Virus record (IMG/VR): IMGVR_UViG_3300042542_000630
Coordinates: 1 to 34,932 of that record
Strand: one strand, 5' to 3'
Length of the DNA: 34,932 nt
DNA from: a virus
Positions 21,295 through 29,459 of this stretch are shown here, piece after piece; positions within the stretch are counted from its first letter, which is position 1, and each line of letters begins with the position of its first letter. The notes beneath the pieces were generated by a model that saw nothing but the letters and a program-made list of their open reading frames with translations, was not told where the DNA came from and made no database searches. The position numbers and the translations under genes were made by a program.

Positions 21295-21627
21295 CTACTC
21301 ATCAAAATCGTCGGGAGAGAACGTAAACACAATCTCTATATCATCTTCTTCAGAGTTTTGCCATGCCTCTGCCATCAATGCAGCGTAAGCAATTGCGTCT
21401 TCGGAACTATCCTGATGCCAGCCTGGTGATTGATGCTGCCGCGCAAGTTTCAAGAGGAGCATAAACAGCCATCCCTCTTGTTCGCTTAATATATTCCCTG
21501 TCAGGACGTTGAAGGCAGCGACTGTTGATCTCATGCTGCGCTCACCTTCAGGTGTATCGTATTCCTGCGCCCTTTCGAGCATCAGGTCTGCGGCGCGTTC
21601 AAGAAACTCAATTGCCGAGATTGTCAT
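21295..21627 (-). CDS. DUF6378-like protein
   Basis: 110 residues from ATG 21627, which overlaps the end of the phosphoesterase gene. It contains LERAADLMLERAQEYDTPEGER, WLFMLLLKLARQH, and DSSEDAIAYAALMAE, the conserved helices of DUF6378. These resemble nucleotide-pool (MazG-like) helical folds, but function is unknown. The C-terminus is acidic. Confidence 0.65.
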   Translation of the reverse strand: MTISAIEFLERAADLMLERAQEYDTPEGERSMRSTVAAFNVLTGNILSEQEGWLFMLLLKLARQHQSPGWHQDSSEDAIAYAALMAEAWQNSEEDDIEIVFTFSPDDFDE

Positions 21628-22609
21628 CGCCACTTGCTCCGTCGAATACACATTGGCCTCGGAAATACGCTTTCCCATCCAGCACCTCGCATAGCTCTGG
21701 CGGCAGCAGTATCCCATCCTTGAAGGTTAGCACCGCAAAGCCAGATGTGTGCGGCGATGGGTTGTTTTCAGCGTAATCGAACTGCGGGCCATGCGGCTCT
21801 GCAAGAGTGCCTGTGTCAACGCCATAGCGACGACCATTGTAGTCAGCCCAAGGTGTAACAGCCAAGCGGTGAAGATGCCCTGTAACGATGCTCTTACCAG
21901 ACTTTAGCGTGTTGTTATATGCAGCATGGATGCCGTTGTGATAACGATGCTTAATCATCACGTTACCGTTAACCATCAGCGACCACGCAAAGTCCCAGCG
22001 GTCAAACTTAGTGTCTAATCGCGCCAAAACGCCTTCATATTCTGCCGCATTGGTAACAAGCATACGGTCAAACCGCATATCGTGGTTGCCAACGTTCCAG
22101 AATGTGCTGCAACCCTTTGGCAGTAACATTTCAATGTCAGCCATGTTCTCTTGGCAGACTTCAAGTTCTTCTTTGACGCTTGGCAGATCAGACCAGCCCA
22201 TAGGAGCATGGCGAGATACCCGTGCGCCGTCAAAGATGTCACCATTCGCCACAACAGCGCGGGGCTTTAGTTCTTTAATCAGAACGTGCAGCGCCTCGTG
22301 GGCTACAGTCCGCTCTTGGTAAGGCCACCAGTGGGCATCCGAGAAGACAATGATATTTCCTGTATCTACAGAAATGTCATTCTGGTTCTTGTAGGCGCGA
22401 CCAACGTCATCGCGGGACCACTTCCCATGCGTGCCAGAGTTTCCGCGAGGCCTGCTTTGCAGGAATACGCCATTTTCTGCTAGTTGCTCTCTACGTTTGT
22501 AGATTAGGCGCTCATCAAGCCCCGTTTGTTCAGCCATGCGGCGCGGGCTACCATTAGCCTTAGCCCAAGCCTGTATAAATTCAGCGTCTGAAAGAATAGG
22601 TGTAGGCAT
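21608..22609 (-). CDS. Metallophosphoesterase with N-terminal HTH
   Basis: 333 residues. Catalytic motifs: SDAHW with D91 and H93, NGDIFD with D124, GNHD at 174-177, GHLH at 244-247. Residues 8-48 form a helix-turn-helix (AEFIQAWAKANGSPRRMAEQTGLDERLIYKRR). Such phage enzymes act on phosphodiesters of unknown kind. It lies in the late unit between lysis and tail genes, which is unusual for a nucleotide enzyme. Confidence 0.85.
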   Translation of the reverse strand: MPTPILSDAEFIQAWAKANGSPRRMAEQTGLDERLIYKRREQLAENGVFLQSRPRGNSGTHGKWSRDDVGRAYKNQNDISVDTGNIIVFSDAHWWPYQERTVAHEALHVLIKELKPRAVVANGDIFDGARVSRHAPMGWSDLPSVKEELEVCQENMADIEMLLPKGCSTFWNVGNHDMRFDRMLVTNAAEYEGVLARLDTKFDRWDFAWSLMVNGNVMIKHRYHNGIHAAYNNTLKSGKSIVTGHLHRLAVTPWADYNGRRYGVDTGTLAEPHGPQFDYAENNPSPHTSGFAVLTFKDGILLPPELCEVLDGKAYFRGQCVFDGASGDDNLGN

Positions 22610-22804: not shown

Positions 22805-23125
22805 CTATTTAGCCTTCAGGGCTTCTTTCCACGCCTCTATGACAAGACGATGTTTAGTCTTGCAGTCACCAAACGCTTCGATAAGTCCCTTTTCCCACAG
22901 CGCACGCTCTGGGTCTAAAAATGGCTTAGGTGGCTCACTCAGGTTTTTGCACGGCGCTGACAGATTTGCCGGAGGAGCCGGGAGTGTCTGTATCACGGAT
23001 GCTTTCGATGAGCAGGCTGACAACGCCATCAGGAGGAGCGGGGCAATCAGCGGGAGGCGCTGGGATATCCCTGTATATTTCCTTGATGGTGTTTGTGCGC
23101 TCGACAGATGTAACTTCTGCGGCAT
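22805..23125 (-). CDS. o-spanin lipoprotein (Rz1-like), nested in the i-spanin gene
   Basis: 106 residues from ATG 23125, preceded by GAGGAAG. The signal segment LPLIAPLLLMALSAC ends in a lipobox with cysteine, and the mature part is Pro-rich (LPAPPANLSAPC). It overlaps the i-spanin gene in another frame for ~190 bp and extends beyond its stop. o-Spanin anchors to the outer membrane and joins the i-spanin to fuse membranes at lysis. Confidence 0.85.
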   Translation of the reverse strand: MPQKLHLSSAQTPSRKYTGISQRLPLIAPLLLMALSACSSKASVIQTLPAPPANLSAPCKNLSEPPKPFLDPERALWEKGLIEAFGDCKTKHRLVIEAWKEALKAK

Positions 23126-23312
23126 TGCGTGCTTCCTCATATTGGACCGACTTGCCGTCAATCACCTTCTGCATGACGACACGTTGCTTCTCAGCCTTTT
23201 CCAACGCCTTTGCGTATGCCGCGTCACACTGCCAATCTTTGACTTTGTAACCGCCAATAAAGCCGACCAGAATAAGGCCGCCCATGACGTAAGGCGTTGG
23301 AATGCCGAGCAT
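22935..23312 (-). CDS. i-spanin (Rz-like)
   Basis: 125 residues. One N-terminal transmembrane helix (YVMGGLILVGFIGGYKV), then a periplasmic coiled coil (YAKALEKAEKQRVVMQKVIDGKSVQYEEARNAAEV) and a C-terminal Pro/Ser-rich tail. The ATG at 23312 overlaps the endolysin stop (TAATG). An in-frame ATG at 23321 is possible. Pairs with the nested Rz1-like protein. Confidence 0.85.
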   Translation of the reverse strand: MLGIPTPYVMGGLILVGFIGGYKVKDWQCDAAYAKALEKAEKQRVVMQKVIDGKSVQYEEARNAAEVTSVERTNTIKEIYRDIPAPPADCPAPPDGVVSLLIESIRDTDTPGSSGKSVSAVQKPE

Positions 23313-23923
23313 TATAGCCAACTCGCGTATTTACGGGTCTTCATCTTGCGGTCATCCAAGCCATGCGTGCCACCATTGATACGCTTTGTCAGAGCGAGAA
23401 TAGCCGCATCGTTAATGCCCTGGTCGCAGACGCCCCACAGCTTGTTCTTGTCGAAGAACCACAGGGCGCTCTCAAAGCAAAGCTCACCAGCCACCAGATC
23501 AGGGTTATCCATCACATCAGGGCGGCCAATGTAGTTAGCAAATGCCTGATAGTTGGACTTGCCTGTCAGTTGGAGCGCACCGCGTCCTCGGAACTTCCAT
23601 CCGTCTCCGCTTCCCTCGTCCCCATTGCCCATGCGATTTGCATAGACACGATTGGCAATCTTTTGCGGTTGACGTTCGTAGGCTTTAGCCAGCGCATCAG
23701 TCGGGAAATACTTGCCGAAAATACCGCGCAGACCTTTTGCACCATAGTTCAGGTTCTCCGAGAACGCCTTGAAATTGCCACTCTCGTGAGCCGTCTGGGC
23801 AAAGAAGTGTGCAGCGCGGTTCTTGTTCAGCTTGTAATAGGCCGCAGCAGCCTTGAGCGTGCCAGGACCAAAAGCGCCATCAGCGGTTACGCCGATTTTC
23901 TGTTGAAGGTTTGCTAGGCTCAT
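23312..23923 (-). CDS. GH19-type endolysin
   Basis: 203 residues from the ATG overlapping the preceding stop (ATGA). N-terminal short binding-like segment (MSLANLQQKIGVTADGAFGPGTLKAAAAYY), then the GH19 chitinase-like muramidase domain: AHESGNFKAFSENLNY (E47, E56) and FRGRGALQLTG at 111-121. It degrades peptidoglycan at lysis. Next to spanins. Confidence 0.92.
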   Translation of the reverse strand: MSLANLQQKIGVTADGAFGPGTLKAAAAYYKLNKNRAAHFFAQTAHESGNFKAFSENLNYGAKGLRGIFGKYFPTDALAKAYERQPQKIANRVYANRMGNGDEGSGDGWKFRGRGALQLTGKSNYQAFANYIGRPDVMDNPDLVAGELCFESALWFFDKNKLWGVCDQGINDAAILALTKRINGGTHGLDDRKMKTRKYASWL

Positions 23924-24411
23924 CGTCCAGCACTCCGCCAATCAGGGAAGTCATTTTCGTCAACTACGCCATCGCCATTGGCATCATAGCGCAAGTCGTT
24001 ACGATACTTCTCCCACGGGGCCATATCATCGTCGTCATCGTCATCAGCCAAGTCCAGTTCTTCTTGAACAGGAGCGGCCATAGGCGCAGGCGGCGGTGCT
24101 ACAGGCTCTGGAGCGGGTTCAGGCTCCACAGGCGCAGGCTCTTCAGGCTTCGGGTCACGAGCATTCGCATTGAGGCTCAGACCGCCAAGCAAACCGACAA
24201 ACGCACCGATGATGGTCTGGAATGCCGGATTAATCATCTCCAGCACCGCAGTGCTATCAACAATATCGTTCGGCATGAACAGGCCAACAACCAGCGCCAA
24301 TACGACGACCAGAATGACCGTCGATAGCGTTACAACGGCAGTGCGGATGGTAAATTCTACCGTATCCTCAATGCCGTCTTGTTTACTTTCAAACTTATCC
24401 CAGAAACTCAT
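23920..24411 (-). CDS. Membrane protein with Pro-rich linker and C-terminal EF-hand
   Basis: 163 residues. Two hydrophobic segments (about 28-46 and 63-80) follow a short N-terminus. Then a Glu/Pro/Ala-rich linker (PEEPAPVEPEPAPEPVAPPP), an Asp tract (DDDDDDD) and a canonical EF-hand loop DANGDGVVDEND at 143-154, which fits Ca2+ binding at positions 1, 3, 5, 9 and 12. Directly upstream of the endolysin gene, so a holin role is possible, but the EF-hand is unusual. Function not known. Confidence 0.7.
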   Translation of the reverse strand: MSFWDKFESKQDGIEDTVEFTIRTAVVTLSTVILVVVLALVVGLFMPNDIVDSTAVLEMINPAFQTIIGAFVGLLGGLSLNANARDPKPEEPAPVEPEPAPEPVAPPPAPMAAPVQEELDLADDDDDDDMAPWEKYRNDLRYDANGDGVVDENDFPDWRSAGR

Positions 24412-24926
24412 TCGTCCCTCCCGGCAAGTGGATTGGCAAGGGTGCGCTGTATCTTGGCATCTAATTCAGTCTGGATTTCCTTGATGCGGCGCTGTTGCTC
24501 CAAATCCTGTGCGCGAAGCTCATTGATTATCGCACGTTGGGATTGAAGCGTCTCCCTCTCCGATACTTGCGTCCTTGCAGTTACAGCATCAACTGTCTGG
24601 CGGGCGCTCATTACGCTATTCCCAAGGCTCCCAGACAGCGCGGCGAGATTATCCGACAAATACTTCGTAGTTTCAAGGTTCATTCTAATCATACGCTCAT
24701 TGCTGTCCTGGCGTTCCTTCATTTTGTTGAAGTCATCGCCCATTGCAGCGTATGTCGCAGTCACTTCCTTCATCGTCAGAAACTGCTGATAAACCTCAAA
24801 TCCAGCCCACAAGCCGCCAACAATCGTGGATACGGCAGCGAAGATAATCGCAATCTTGCCGCTGCTTAGGCCGCCAATATTAAAGCTAAAGCCGCCTTCG
24901 TCGAAAGAGATTTTATCGTCACTCAT
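24408..24926 (-). CDS. Single-pass membrane protein with long coiled coil (172 aa)
   Basis: From ATG 24926. One transmembrane helix (KIAIIFAAVSTIVGGLWAGFEVY) after a short N-terminus, then a long coiled coil (MKERQDSNERMIRMNLETTKYLSDN..., RELRAQDLEQQRRIKEIQTELDAKI). Type resembles phage holin-like or membrane-anchored spacer proteins. It overlaps the secreted protein upstream by 8 bp. Role unknown. Confidence 0.6.
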   Translation of the reverse strand: MSDDKISFDEGGFSFNIGGLSSGKIAIIFAAVSTIVGGLWAGFEVYQQFLTMKEVTATYAAMGDDFNKMKERQDSNERMIRMNLETTKYLSDNLAALSGSLGNSVMSARQTVDAVTARTQVSERETLQSQRAIINELRAQDLEQQRRIKEIQTELDAKIQRTLANPLAGRDE

Positions 24927-26529
24927 ATTGTGCATCCACCATTTGCTGCCAACGGCCATCACTCCCCTGCATCATTCTGTATAATACCATATTTGCGTCA
25001 GGAATGCGACGACCACGATAGATGTCCCTTGGTTGATAGAATGGCAGATCAGGGATACGGGCCTGCGTGTAAGCAGAATAGCCAACGGGGATTACCGCAA
25101 GCTGTGTCATTGCCTCATTTTCGCCACTATTCACATCGCCAACGTCGATATTTTGCCCAGATGACATCTCAGCCTGCATATTGAGCAGTTCCATCTGCTG
25201 TGCCTGTCCTGATGGAGTAGATGTCTCGCTGCCAATCGTTGTGGTGATTACAGGCTGGAACGTAGGCCCTTCTGTTGGCTGTAAACTATAAGTTACACCA
25301 GCCGTCTCAGTTGTCGTTTGAGCGCCGTGTATCTGCTCATATTGGGCATCTGCCATTGCAACGAATGCGACATCCTGCGCGCTAACCTGAAGAACAGTCT
25401 CACGGGTAAACAGATCAGCCTCTTCAATGGCTTCACGCTGGAAGAATGCCACATTGCTGTCAGTGCGGCTCTCAGGGCTATTAGAAGCGATTACAGGGCC
25501 ATTTGAACCTGACGGCCCCTGCGTTGCCTGACGCGCCTCTTCAGCCTCCTGCGCCTCTTTAGCGACTGCCTCAAGGGCGCTAGACACTTCTGCAGCCGTT
25601 GGTCCTTCCACTTGCTCGGATACAACCTCAGATGATGCCGACAATGCCGCTAATTCGTCTGGACTTAGCCGCTCTTCCTCCGTTTCAGCCGCCTCATCTT
25701 CTTCAATGTCGTCCATAGCCACTTCTTCTGAAATAGGTTCTACCACTACTTCAGAAGCAACTTCAGTTTCTGCGATAACTTCTTCGACAACAGCATCTTC
25801 AGGCTCCGGCTCCACAATTTGCGCAGCCTGCTCTTCCACAACCTCTTCTTGCTGTTGCGTAATTACAACAGTTTCCGGCTCTGGCGTTGGTGCAACGACG
25901 ACTGGGCTAAAAACAGGCTCTGGTTCAGGCTGTGGAGCGGGTGCGCCAGCGACATATGACGTATTATCAAGCAGATTTACGTTTTGGCCGTAGAATATGG
26001 AGATGCTGTCCGACATTGCAGGACCAGTGAGGCCAGCCGTGACTAAATGCCACTGGTTGTTAACGTCTCCGTAGTTCCACTGCACCTTTCCGTCAGGGAA
26101 CAAAGCAATCTCAAGCGTGTTAGGTAAGCCAGAGCCGTATTCCTGCGTGTTATACCAGCCGAATACAGCCGAATTTGCGTCTGTGCGGTAATATGGGTTG
26201 CCGCCACTAATCAGGTCTGTCCAGAGGCCGTAAATCGTGTTTCGTGGAGCCTGCTCGATAGGCATTCCGTTGCAGCAGAGATGGCCTACGTTGTTAAACG
26301 AGACAAATCCGTTTGATGATACCCATGCTTGGGTGAATGTTTGGCCGTAATACTCAAACGGAAACGCCAATTGCACTAGCCGCGTGCTGTCATCACCCCC
26401 GTTTAGAGGTGTCATCGTCTGTGGTGAGCCGATGATTTGTGGCGGAATTGGGGCTGGGGTGTAGTCCTGTGCCGCAATCGGTGCTGAGATTAACGCCGCG
26501 AGGAGCGTTTGGGCTTGTTTTCTTCCCAT
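24919..26529 (-). CDS. Secreted protein with nidogen-like domain and acidic repeat region
   Basis: 536 residues. Signal peptide MGRKQAQTLLAALISAPIAAQ, then a nidogen-like domain (about 45-200; FPFEYYGQTFTQAWVSSNGFVSFNN ... FGWYNTQEYG ... VQWNYGDVN). A 120-residue Glu/Val-rich acidic stretch follows (VEEQAAQIVEPEPEDAVVEE), then a C-terminal part with TVLQVSAQDVAFVAMADAQYEQIHGAQ. It should be exported. Nidogen-like domains mediate adhesion. A role at the host surface or virion tip is a guess. Confidence 0.7.
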   Translation of the reverse strand: MGRKQAQTLLAALISAPIAAQDYTPAPIPPQIIGSPQTMTPLNGGDDSTRLVQLAFPFEYYGQTFTQAWVSSNGFVSFNNVGHLCCNGMPIEQAPRNTIYGLWTDLISGGNPYYRTDANSAVFGWYNTQEYGSGLPNTLEIALFPDGKVQWNYGDVNNQWHLVTAGLTGPAMSDSISIFYGQNVNLLDNTSYVAGAPAPQPEPEPVFSPVVVAPTPEPETVVITQQQEEVVEEQAAQIVEPEPEDAVVEEVIAETEVASEVVVEPISEEVAMDDIEEDEAAETEEERLSPDELAALSASSEVVSEQVEGPTAAEVSSALEAVAKEAQEAEEARQATQGPSGSNGPVIASNSPESRTDSNVAFFQREAIEEADLFTRETVLQVSAQDVAFVAMADAQYEQIHGAQTTTETAGVTYSLQPTEGPTFQPVITTTIGSETSTPSGQAQQMELLNMQAEMSSGQNIDVGDVNSGENEAMTQLAVIPVGYSAYTQARIPDLPFYQPRDIYRGRRIPDANMVLYRMMQGSDGRWQQMVDAQYE

Positions 26530-27509
26530 GCCGCTGAAGCCTCTTTGCCGATTTTCCCTTCATACGGGCAGGGTGTGCCAGCCATCTTCATTGCGTCGAA
26601 AACACGCTCGTCTTGGCATAGCAGAGACACAGCAGCCACCCGCATACCCATATCGTAGAGCGTCTTAGACAGCTTCAGGGCTTCGCAGTTCTTATCGCGG
26701 ATGGTCTTGCCACCAGAGATGCCGAGAATTTGCGTCTGAACAGCCCCAGAAACGCCTGTGGTGCAAAGGTCTTGGCTGTAGCTCATCATGCTTGGCGCAA
26801 TGGCTGACGGAGGCGGAGACTTGATGTTCTGGTCTACCACCTGGCGGTTCACGCTCTCGCTGTAGCTTTTGCTGTCAGAGACGTTGACGTTGTTGTTCTG
26901 GTTAACGTTCCGGCTGTCCGATGTGCTGACAGACGTATTCTGGTTCACATTCGTGCTAACCGAGCGGCTGTCAGACACGTTCGTGTTCACGTTGGTGTTG
27001 ACGTTCTCAGATGTGCTGGTCGAGATGTTCGTGTTCAGGTTCGTGTTGGTTGACGAGCTTGTCGCATTGCTCTCGCTGAAGTTGCGATTGGTATTGAGGT
27101 TCGTCGATGTTGACGCACTCTCATTTACGTTGCGGTTCGTGTTGACGTTTACGCTGTTAACCGTGCTGTTGTTGGTGCTGTTTACCGTCTGGTTAACCGT
27201 GCTGGTCGAAACGTCCGTGTTCTGATTGATATTGGTCGATGTGCTGGTTGACGTATTCTGGTTGATGTTCGTCAACGTGCCGGACTGAATGTTGTTGTTC
27301 GTGTTGACATTTGTAGACGTTGAAGTGCTGGTTGATGTCGAGACGTTGTTGTTGTTGTTTGTGTTCGTGCTAGTCGCCGTTGACGTAGACGTATTGACGT
27401 TGTTGTTCGTATTCGTTGCCGTCGATGTGGTGGTCGTGTCGTAGACGTAGTTAGTCGATTGCGCGAATGCTGCCACAGGAACAAAAGCAAGCAGCAGCAG
27501 TTTACGCAT
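26490..27509 (-). CDS. Secreted Asn/Thr/Ser-rich repeat protein
   Basis: 339 residues. Signal peptide MRKLLLLAFVPVAAFAQ. Residues ~20-225 are a long low-complexity region of N, T, S and V (NVNTSTSTATSTNTNNNNNV, and similar), with evident short-period repeats. The C-terminal ~100 residues are a compact domain with four cysteines (DLCTTG, KNCEALKL, LLCQDE, TPCPYEG). The ATG overlaps the previous stop (TAATG). The repeat may form a beta-solenoid or extended surface structure. Confidence 0.75.
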   Translation of the reverse strand: MRKLLLLAFVPVAAFAQSTNYVYDTTTTSTATNTNNNVNTSTSTATSTNTNNNNNVSTSTSTSTSTNVNTNNNIQSGTLTNINQNTSTSTSTNINQNTDVSTSTVNQTVNSTNNSTVNSVNVNTNRNVNESASTSTNLNTNRNFSESNATSSSTNTNLNTNISTSTSENVNTNVNTNVSDSRSVSTNVNQNTSVSTSDSRNVNQNNNVNVSDSKSYSESVNRQVVDQNIKSPPPSAIAPSMMSYSQDLCTTGVSGAVQTQILGISGGKTIRDKNCEALKLSKTLYDMGMRVAAVSLLCQDERVFDAMKMAGTPCPYEGKIGKEASAAWEENKPKRSSRR

Positions 27510-27715
27510 TAGCGATCCGCCTTGTTGTCCAACTTATCTTCGATGCGACGAAGGTGCATCATCACCTCATCAAACTTCTTGTCGATGGCCGCAAACTTAT
27601 CATCACCATATGACAGCTTCGTCTCAATGATGGCGATATTCTTGTTTAACTGAACCCATACGCCGATAACGCTTCCGAGTAGGGCCAGTGCGGTAACGAT
27701 GAGTTCAGGTGTCAT
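27509..27715 (-). CDS. Membrane-anchored coiled-coil protein, possible holin-like (68 aa)
   Basis: ATG at 27715 overlaps the previous stop (TAATG). MTPELIVTALALLGSVIGVW is a transmembrane helix, followed by an acidic/basic coiled coil (IAIIETKLSYGDDKFAAIDKKFDEVMMHLRRIEDKLD). Common phage membrane-protein type in the lysis or fibre region. Function unknown. Confidence 0.6.
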   Translation of the reverse strand: MTPELIVTALALLGSVIGVWVQLNKNIAIIETKLSYGDDKFAAIDKKFDEVMMHLRRIEDKLDNKADR

Positions 27716-28167
27716 TAGGCAGCCCATTCTTCAGCAGGAGCATCCGGCCATACCGGGTTCAGCAAATCAACTGCGCGCAGAGCAACGCGATATGCGGCAA
27801 AGCTTGCCTTGCAAGCGGCAGTCAAACCAACATCGCCAAGCTGCGTCCAATCGCACTGCGTAAGGCGGCGGTTGCGCTCTTCACGATTGTTTTGCTTCAT
27901 CACGCCTTCGCTAACAGCAATCTCTTCAGCCGTGGCAGGAGTGACAATCCAATTCCGCGTCCAAACGCCATCGACCAATACCGGGTCGCCTTCCGTTACG
28001 CGGCTCTTGTAATCAACGTCTGGATATTGCGCTTCTTGAACAGCCTCATATCCCTCCGGCGCGACAAACGGCGTGGGAAAACTGACGTTAGAGAAACGCA
28101 AACGAAGGTCACCTTCGTAAATAGGATATTCGGCGACTGCGCCGTTTTCAATGCGTGCGTATGTCAT
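27715..28167 (-). CDS. Tail fibre assembly chaperone-like protein
   Basis: 150 residues, overlapping the propeller gene stop (ATGA). The C-terminal motif ERNRRLTQCDWTQLGDVGL ... FAAYRVALRAVDLLNPVWPDAP is that of phage tail-fibre assembly chaperones (Phage_tail_APC type). These proteins bind the fibre tip during folding. The gene sits right after the candidate receptor-binding protein, as usual. Confidence 0.75.
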   Translation of the reverse strand: MTYARIENGAVAEYPIYEGDLRLRFSNVSFPTPFVAPEGYEAVQEAQYPDVDYKSRVTEGDPVLVDGVWTRNWIVTPATAEEIAVSEGVMKQNNREERNRRLTQCDWTQLGDVGLTAACKASFAAYRVALRAVDLLNPVWPDAPAEEWAA

Positions 28168-29459
28168 ATTTCAACCACCTGTGCTGCAAATCCTGATGTA
28201 AAATCACCCATGCTAGACGAGCCGCTATTGTATGACGGGTCCGCCCATGTGAAAGTTGGCGTAGTAGATGTATAGCTTGCGTTACTATTCGTAAGTGAGA
28301 TTGTCGCGTATGTAATAGTTACTCCGCCTACAACATACGAACCAGCCCCGTCACCAGTATCCGGCAATTTTCCGAATACAATGCGGCCAAATGATTGTGT
28401 TTTTGTAATAAAGTAAAACGAGCCAAGATTATCTACAGCTATATCAGCTCCGCCACCTTGGTTTCCAGTGACAATTACTGAGGATATACTGCGCTGCCAT
28501 TGGACATCACCAGAACTGTTGTATTTAACAATATTTGCTTGAGTAGTTGTTCCTCCAATAACGTATATATTGTTACTTGCATCAACACATACGTTTGTAG
28601 GGGCTCCAGCACTTGATAGATTTTTCTGCCACTGTAGCGTTCCAGACGAATTATATTTTGCGGTTATATAATCTCCCGTGCCATCTGGATTTCCGACTAC
28701 AATTACATTTTCTGCGCTATCAAGAGTAAGTGCCTTTGTAGCCAATATCCCACCAACACCCCAGCTAAATTGACGCTGCCATTGGAGAGTGCCGGATGTG
28801 TTGAATTTAGCCACAACCCAACCGCGCTGGTCAGACCACCTTACACTTGCATATACATTCCCTGCGCTTGTCACAGCGAGGCCCGCAACAAGCGCGCCGT
28901 CATTCATCGTGAACTGCCACTGGAGAGTTCCAGACGAATTAAATTTCACAATTCCCGGACGACCTGTGAATTTACCGGCAACATAAACATTACCGCTTCC
29001 ATCCACCGCAATTCTGTTTGGGCGCTCGTCGCCATTGTTGGGCGGATCAGTCGGTGGCTTTTGGTAGTATCGCTGCCATTGAAGAACGCCAGACGAATTG
29101 TATTTTGCAACAATCATCTGGTAAGAGTAATAAGGCTCCCATTGCCCCGCTTCTGGATTAAACCATTCTCCGGGAGAATATAGATTAAAGCCGCAAGTAT
29201 AGACGTTGCCGCTACTATCTATAGTCATGTCTTGGCAGTAAGCGTCCGCAATGGTCGAACTTAACCCTTTGCGCCACTGAACTGTCGGATTTGAATTATA
29301 CTTTATTGTATGGATTGACCACCCGACCGCCCACGAACCAATATAGACATTTTTTGAACTGTCTGCTTCTACCGCAACAGATTTATAGTTTGCGTCTGTA
29401 TTGACGGCCAGCCAGCCTAAGCCGCCGGAGCCAGCAGATAGCATTACGCGCTCAAGCAT
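28164..29459 (-). CDS. Beta-propeller tail protein (SBBP-like repeats), candidate receptor-binding
   Basis: 431 residues. Six repeats around a conserved hydrophobic QW signature (VQWRKG, LQWQRY, LQWQFT, LQWQRQ, LQWQKN, VQWQRS), each ~50 residues with SGNVYVAG-type beta strands, so a six-bladed propeller is likely. The last ~60 residues are a beta-rich end. No transmembrane helix is seen. It is followed by the fibre chaperone, which suggests a tail tip protein that binds the host surface. Confidence 0.7.
   Translation of the reverse strand: MLERVMLSAGSGGLGWLAVNTDANYKSVAVEADSSKNVYIGSWAVGWSIHTIKYNSNPTVQWRKGLSSTIADAYCQDMTIDSSGNVYTCGFNLYSPGEWFNPEAGQWEPYYSYQMIVAKYNSSGVLQWQRYYQKPPTDPPNNGDERPNRIAVDGSGNVYVAGKFTGRPGIVKFNSSGTLQWQFTMNDGALVAGLAVTSAGNVYASVRWSDQRGWVVAKFNTSGTLQWQRQFSWGVGGILATKALTLDSAENVIVVGNPDGTGDYITAKYNSSGTLQWQKNLSSAGAPTNVCVDASNNIYVIGGTTTQANIVKYNSSGDVQWQRSISSVIVTGNQGGGADIAVDNLGSFYFITKTQSFGRIVFGKLPDTGDGAGSYVVGGVTITYATISLTNSNASYTSTTPTFTWADPSYNSGSSSMGDFTSGFAAQVVEI

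Follow-up and report, generated by a model that had tools for sequence, protein, structure and literature searches.

The stretch of DNA analysed here, referred to as the window, is a virus contig of 34,932 bases that belongs to a podovirus encoding a P22-type tail stabilisation protein, portal, capsid, and scaffold. On its minus strand, five genes (A to E) are located between the genes for a beta-propeller fibre and its assembly chaperone (27715-29459) on one side and the endolysin gene on the other (Table 1). A first-pass annotation, made from the window alone, had described five genes chained by overlaps between fibres and lysis genes, and this layout is confirmed, as all five (5/5) open reading frames are recovered at the same coordinates with overlapping ends. 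At the junction of C and D the overlap amounts to 8 nt, and at that of E with the endolysin gene to 4 nt (ATGA); the ATG start of D is backed by its relatives. Scans of the window for promoters and terminators gave results no better than those for shuffled sequence, and late expression is implied by the position at the lysis genes and by the overlaps on the same strand. Beyond the lysis genes, a metallophosphoesterase gene (21608-22609) is situated, which is also present in MW202879 (19938-20909) and in HTVC033P.

Table 1. Genes and protein features of the A-E region and the adjoining lysis genes in the window.
Feature	Position	Strand	Description
Gene A	27509..27715	-	1 TM helix and coiled coil; 68 aa from ATG 27715, 72 aa from ATG 27727; accessory
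Gene B	26490..27509	-	339 aa; predicted to be exported, Asn/Thr/Ser-rich, C-terminal four-Cys domain; core
B signal peptide (predicted)	27462..27509	-	MRKLLLLAFVPVAAFA|QS; from sequence and heuristic
B disordered Asn/Thr/Ser-rich region	26835..27452	-	70% N+T+S; pLDDT <50
B four-Cys C-terminal domain	26493..26816	-	C249, C275, C298, C314; pLDDT ~70-91
Gene C	24919..26529	-	536 aa; predicted to be exported; head, acidic linker, conserved tail
C signal peptide (predicted)	26470..26529	-	MGRKQAQTLLAALISAPIAA|QD; from sequence and heuristic
C beta-sandwich head	25942..26469	-	Exchangeable, weakly nidogen-like; pLDDT 85-95 over most
C acidic linker	25630..25941	-	31% D+E, 1% K+R
C conserved C-terminal tail	24922..25092	-	..Y....FY...DIY.....DAN..YRMM......M...QY
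Gene D	24408..24926	-	172 aa; N-terminal TM helix, coiled coil, C-terminal NPL motif
Gene E	23920..24411	-	163 aa; 2 TM helices, C-terminal EF-hand-like loop; probable holin
GH19-type endolysin	23312..23923	-	80-89% identical in module-carrying relatives
i-spanin (Rz-like)	22935..23312	-	phrog_1152, E 9.5e-4
o-spanin (Rz1-like lipoprotein)	22805..23161	-	LSAC lipobox; most of the frame lies inside the gene of the Rz-like spanin (22935-23321)

Proteins B and C are both predicted to be exported. When signal peptides are called by a simple home-made heuristic rather than by SignalP, N-termini of this type are found in 65 of 74 B relatives (88%) and in 55 of 65 C relatives (85%), compared with 38 of 459 other genes in the same loci (8%), and several of the misses among the B and C relatives look like wrong start calls. 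Residues 21-225 of B consist to 70% of Asn, Thr, and Ser and include about 200 disordered residues, whereas the C-terminal domain carries four Cys that are invariant in 44 relatives. In the AlphaFold model of this domain, a beta-hairpin is bracketed by C249 and C275 and is followed by helices with C298 and C314; judging from this pattern of Cys residues, the domain may form disulfides. B matches phrog_20531, a family of unknown function (E 9.5e-16, residues 169-327), which includes proteins of HTVC023P, HTVC033P, and HTVC202P with the same signal peptide, Asn/Thr/Ser-rich region, and four-Cys domain; this PHROG, however, is a single-protein family without an assigned function, whereas B is part of a three-gene unit formed with C and D. 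In a viral fold library, B relatives of unknown function are the sole matches. The gp25-like proteins of the N4-like Achromobacter phages JWAlpha and JWDelta, annotated as “similar to RSL1_ORF070,” resemble B in their signal peptide, an Asn/Ser/Gln/Gly-rich region, and the arrangement of Cys residues and hairpin, although similarity is weak (E 0.3-0.7) and no D is encoded nearby. Exported low-complexity proteins with a B-like Cys domain, again with no D nearby, are encoded in Achromobacter and Agrobacterium phages (L104:4422-5336, L106:3449-4381, and L105:4806-5366), and together with B they possibly form a wider superfamily.

According to AlphaFold and alignment, C consists of a confidently predicted beta-sandwich head (residues about 21-196), a disordered acidic middle, and a conserved stretch comprising the last ~60 residues; the head and the C-terminal domain of B are the only parts for which the structure models are confident. 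The first-pass descriptions of B, as a protein with a signal peptide, an Asn/Thr/Ser-rich region, and a four-Cys domain, and of C, as a protein with a signal peptide and an acidic stretch (Asp and Glu make up 31% of residues 197-300), agree with these results, the signal peptides being called by the heuristic. The label “nidogen-like” fares less well, as the C protein of the window has no Pfam match to NIDO (PF06119) and only 1 of 21 relatives shows one (E 0.0017). The L014-type and pelagiphage C heads are weakly similar to CBM_4_9 (PF02018; 2 of 13, best E 0.0089). Comparison with solved structures, by sequence and by fold, provides no meaningful match for B or C, and none for the C head. A C-like protein from a spring-water phage (L005:7236-8342) is labelled “transport protein tonB,” apparently owing to its charged, Pro-containing linker.

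In D, an N-terminal TM helix is predicted in 56 of 59 sequences, and an NPL (Asn-Pro-Leu) motif is located within the last residues, likewise in 56 of 59. Similarity to DUF2730 (PF10805) stays below the cut-off (one relative, 15.8 bits versus 24.9), and neither C nor D has a good match to any PHROG or curated family. The D proteins of roseophages CRP-810 (L007:8162-8584) and CRP-207 (L011:3292-3873) carry the public label “lysozyme” but are actually TM coiled-coil proteins without a match to a lysozyme domain; the labels “TonB,” “OmpA,” and “lysozyme” on related proteins are all unsupported. Small membrane proteins with a coiled coil, such as A, are common, and clear relatives of A are found only nearby (49-65% identical in L013, L016-L019, and L093), its PHROG matches being weak and of unknown function. 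In E, to which the first-pass annotation had ascribed an EF-hand, the loop DxNxDGxVDxxD is kept in 8 of 8 relatives, although the score against the Pfam EF-hand model is below the cut-off. The membrane domain of E occurs in two unrelated types (one in the window and L014-L016, another in L013 and L017-L019) followed by the same EF-hand-like C-terminal tail, which is another domain exchange beside that in C. With two TM helices and a gene overlapping that of the endolysin, E has the properties of a class II holin, although no family model supports the assignment, and within the lysis block it probably serves as the holin.

At least 589 virus contigs in IMG/VR code for the C-terminal domain of B; 80 of them were fetched for a comparison of gene chains and 78 gene-called. 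Among 84,980 prokaryote genomes the domain occurs in only 11 contigs, all from draft genomes and probably representing phage sequence, and a bacterial origin of the domain is rejected on this basis. Almost without exception, the gene chains around B contain B, C, and D in that order. In 75 loci, at least 3.3 kb of sequence follow B, and a profile of D detects this protein there in every one of them (75 of 75); since the training set of the profile had been chosen partly by position, the independent test consists of 19 loci outside that set, in which D is detected with E values from 1e-50 to 3e-7. In five control loci the profile has no match, two of them being relatives of the window without the module (L107 and L108) and three containing the distant B-like protein only (L104-L106). 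Also, the triad is complete in all 11 annotated phage records with a clear B, i.e., in the pelagiphages HTVC202P, HTVC115P, HTVC033P, HTVC023P, Baldr, and Mosig, the autographivirus MedDCM-OCT-S28-C10, the roseophages CRP-207 and CRP-810, in which the middle gene is unrelated, and two spring-water phages. As the carriers span several families, including podoviruses (among them those of SAR11) and a T4-like myovirus, the triad is not accounted for by a common ancestry of entire genomes. MW202879, the closest syntenic annotated relative of the window, lacks the module at the corresponding place. Co-occurrence in relatives, which had been expected for all five genes, is universal for B, C, and D and restricted to near relatives for A and E, which reduces the conserved unit from five genes to the three of B-C-D. 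In HTVC115P, a gene annotated as toxin-activating lysine-acyltransferase (L002:13243-13692) is situated shortly after the B-C-D region.

It is the head of C that varies within this constant arrangement. The C proteins of three relatives (L014, L016, and L093) are 73-75% identical to that of the window in their tails, whereas their heads are 27-30% identical, i.e., at chance level; in a further relative (L013), identities are 76% for the head and 69% for the tail. At the DNA level, similarity between the window and L014 covers 26461-27466, is lost over the head and the greater part of the acidic arm, and restarts at 25457 to continue into the endolysin gene. The replacement head of the L014 type belongs to the C set weakly matching CBM_4_9, and the head of the window to the set weakly matching nidogen domains. 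In CRP-207, CRP-810, and ct7L0027, even the whole gene between B and D codes for an unrelated protein, which also has a signal peptide. Swapping a single folded domain while the adjacent parts stay constant is a pattern of target-binding proteins. Because the head is exchanged among relatives while its neighbours are constant, it is read as a target-binding domain, and we consider it probable that it binds a specific target.

The surroundings of the module often contain lysis genes. A lysozyme-like gene is the commonest non-core neighbour (no more than 6 genes away from B in 33 of 78 gene-called loci), a GH19 endolysin gene is located near B in 8 further loci of the 78, and Rz-like spanin genes are found nearby in other, marine loci. 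Furthermore, the order A-B-C-D-E-endolysin, or most of it, recurs in contigs in which the endolysin is 80-89% identical whereas the adjoining neck gene is 27-31% identical, which indicates that the block moves between backbones. B-C-D might be a lysis accessory, an envelope-disruption complex that works alongside holin, endolysin, and spanins, for instance by severing contacts within the envelope or scattering what is left of the cell. For such a role, both the sharing of the module, together with E and the endolysin, by phages with adjoining structural genes only about 30% alike and a D anchored in the inner membrane with a periplasmic coiled coil would be suitable, and D is similar to the i-spanin Rz in its N-terminal TM helix, its coiled coil expected in the periplasm, and its location near lysis genes. 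However, the phage of the window already possesses a holin candidate, endolysin, Rz, and Rz1, and a component serving lysis would have no need of a head that binds targets and is exchanged. In addition, the module adjoins terL in HTVC202P, Baldr, and MedDCM-OCT-S28-C10 and is located near a primase gene in Mosig, so that it is not strictly a lysis cassette and can stand alone. A function as spanin or spanin replacement is ruled out, as a true Rz/Rz1 pair coexists with the module and B-C-D has no outer-membrane lipoprotein partner, a lipobox being present in Rz1 and absent from A, B, C, D, and E. A lysis accessory seems rather unlikely, yet among the purposes considered it is a close second to masking or remodelling of the envelope and precedes adhesion and virion decoration.

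Co-inheritance, the predicted export of B and C, the TM anchor of D, and the exchange of heads fit a host-surface or envelope complex, as had been suggested in the first-pass annotation for all five genes; the suggestion suits B-C-D, with its contiguity, predicted envelope location, and head exchange, and not a five-gene unit. Whereas the architecture of B-C-D is well supported, we infer its function from the sequences as follows. B and C would enter the periplasm via Sec-type signal peptides, and D would be anchored in the inner membrane with its coiled coil expected in the periplasm. One complex may then be built from the four-Cys B domain with its putative disulfides, the tail conserved in C, and the D coiled coil; in this complex, the B domain and D would be the fixed part and the head of C the variable part. 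The acidic arm of C would present the beta head to a target in the host envelope, probably a glycan or receptor. The effect around lysis would be a host envelope occupied or remodelled by the complex, so that the receptor would be masked and progeny would not be lost on the dying cell or its debris. That B-C-D forms an exported three-part envelope complex seems likely. To the whole reading, that of a late, self-contained exported envelope module with a target-binding head which masks or remodels the envelope of the dying host, we assign a probability of roughly 0.4, and masking or exclusion as its purpose is proposed tentatively. Against this reading, neither an outer-membrane anchor nor a lipobox is present in B and C, which makes exposure of the head at the cell surface hard to explain, and the C head is only weakly like known carbohydrate-binding or nidogen domains and matches no solved structure. 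The T5 Llp and T1 Cor proteins are superinfection-exclusion lipoproteins acting at the envelope (PMC9586334). T5 Llp provides the closest precedent for a masking of the envelope. Both proteins share with the proposed B-C-D complex that a phage-encoded exported protein acts at the envelope, possibly with receptor masking as a common purpose, but each of them is a single small lipoprotein, whereas B (339 aa) and C (536 aa) have no lipobox and belong to a three-gene unit; as B and C are not lipoproteins, an exclusion factor of the Llp/Cor type is ruled out. Known exclusion proteins are usually made early (PMC9586334), which also speaks against a late masking module. PADLOC models for known or candidate anti-phage defence match none of 6 proteins.

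The position beside fibre genes in the window, the disulfide-type Cys pattern of B, and a head exchangeable as in receptor-binding proteins would also be consistent with a decoration of the virion, in which case folding and disulfide formation of B and C would take place in the periplasm before both are added to the particles at lysis. Signal peptides, however, are unusual for virion proteins that are assembled in the cytoplasm. Also, gp25 of JWAlpha, a distant relative of B, is absent from the virion proteins listed in the part of its description covered here, for which major bands only were analysed (PMC3915230). In the main texts of the papers searched, no virion proteomics of module carriers was found. 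We regard virion decoration as the least probable of the purposes considered.

Alternatively, the exported proteins might act as a host-surface adhesin that makes infected cells or their remnants sticky, leading to aggregation, capture of siblings, or attachment to particles. The disordered Asn/Thr/Ser-rich region and the lectin-like head would suit such a function, and a precedent, the closest one for an exported multigene module that phage families share, exists in the type VIII secretion (curli) system of pelagiphages, for which such a role has been proposed (PMC9599517). Like B-C-D, pelagiphage curli moved between phage families and occurs in the same marine phages, but the proteins are different. 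The CsgG outer-membrane channel is detected in 0 of 25 records, with 4 control genomes positive, and curlin repeats are found in 0 of the 25 records and in none of 44 B proteins, so that a curli fibre or type VIII secretion system is ruled out. As the module has no gene for a secretion channel, and as B and C are without an outer-membrane anchor, adhesion appears improbable, if less so than virion decoration.

The papers searched contain no description of the three-gene unit, and B-C-D is a real, widespread, and apparently undescribed phage module. With a fair, though less than even, chance it represents a new kind of system. This would be an exported envelope machine of three parts, with a target-binding head that can be interchanged, which is passed between unrelated lineages of tailed phages and changes the infected cell's surface unlike any known exclusion, lysis, or curli system. 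The module is encountered in very different and very abundant phages of oceans and lakes, in at least 589 virus contigs, and phages of the HTVC023P and HTVC033P types rank with the most abundant pelagiphages (PMC12753301; PMC9038755). If the conserved exported complex exists as proposed, infected cells of SAR11 and other aquatic bacteria would carry a phage-made structure in their envelope before bursting, which would bear on superinfection, on the loss of viruses to debris, and on the release of organic matter. In these phages, for which few receptors are known, the exchangeable head of C would offer a direct handle on their specificity for the host envelope.
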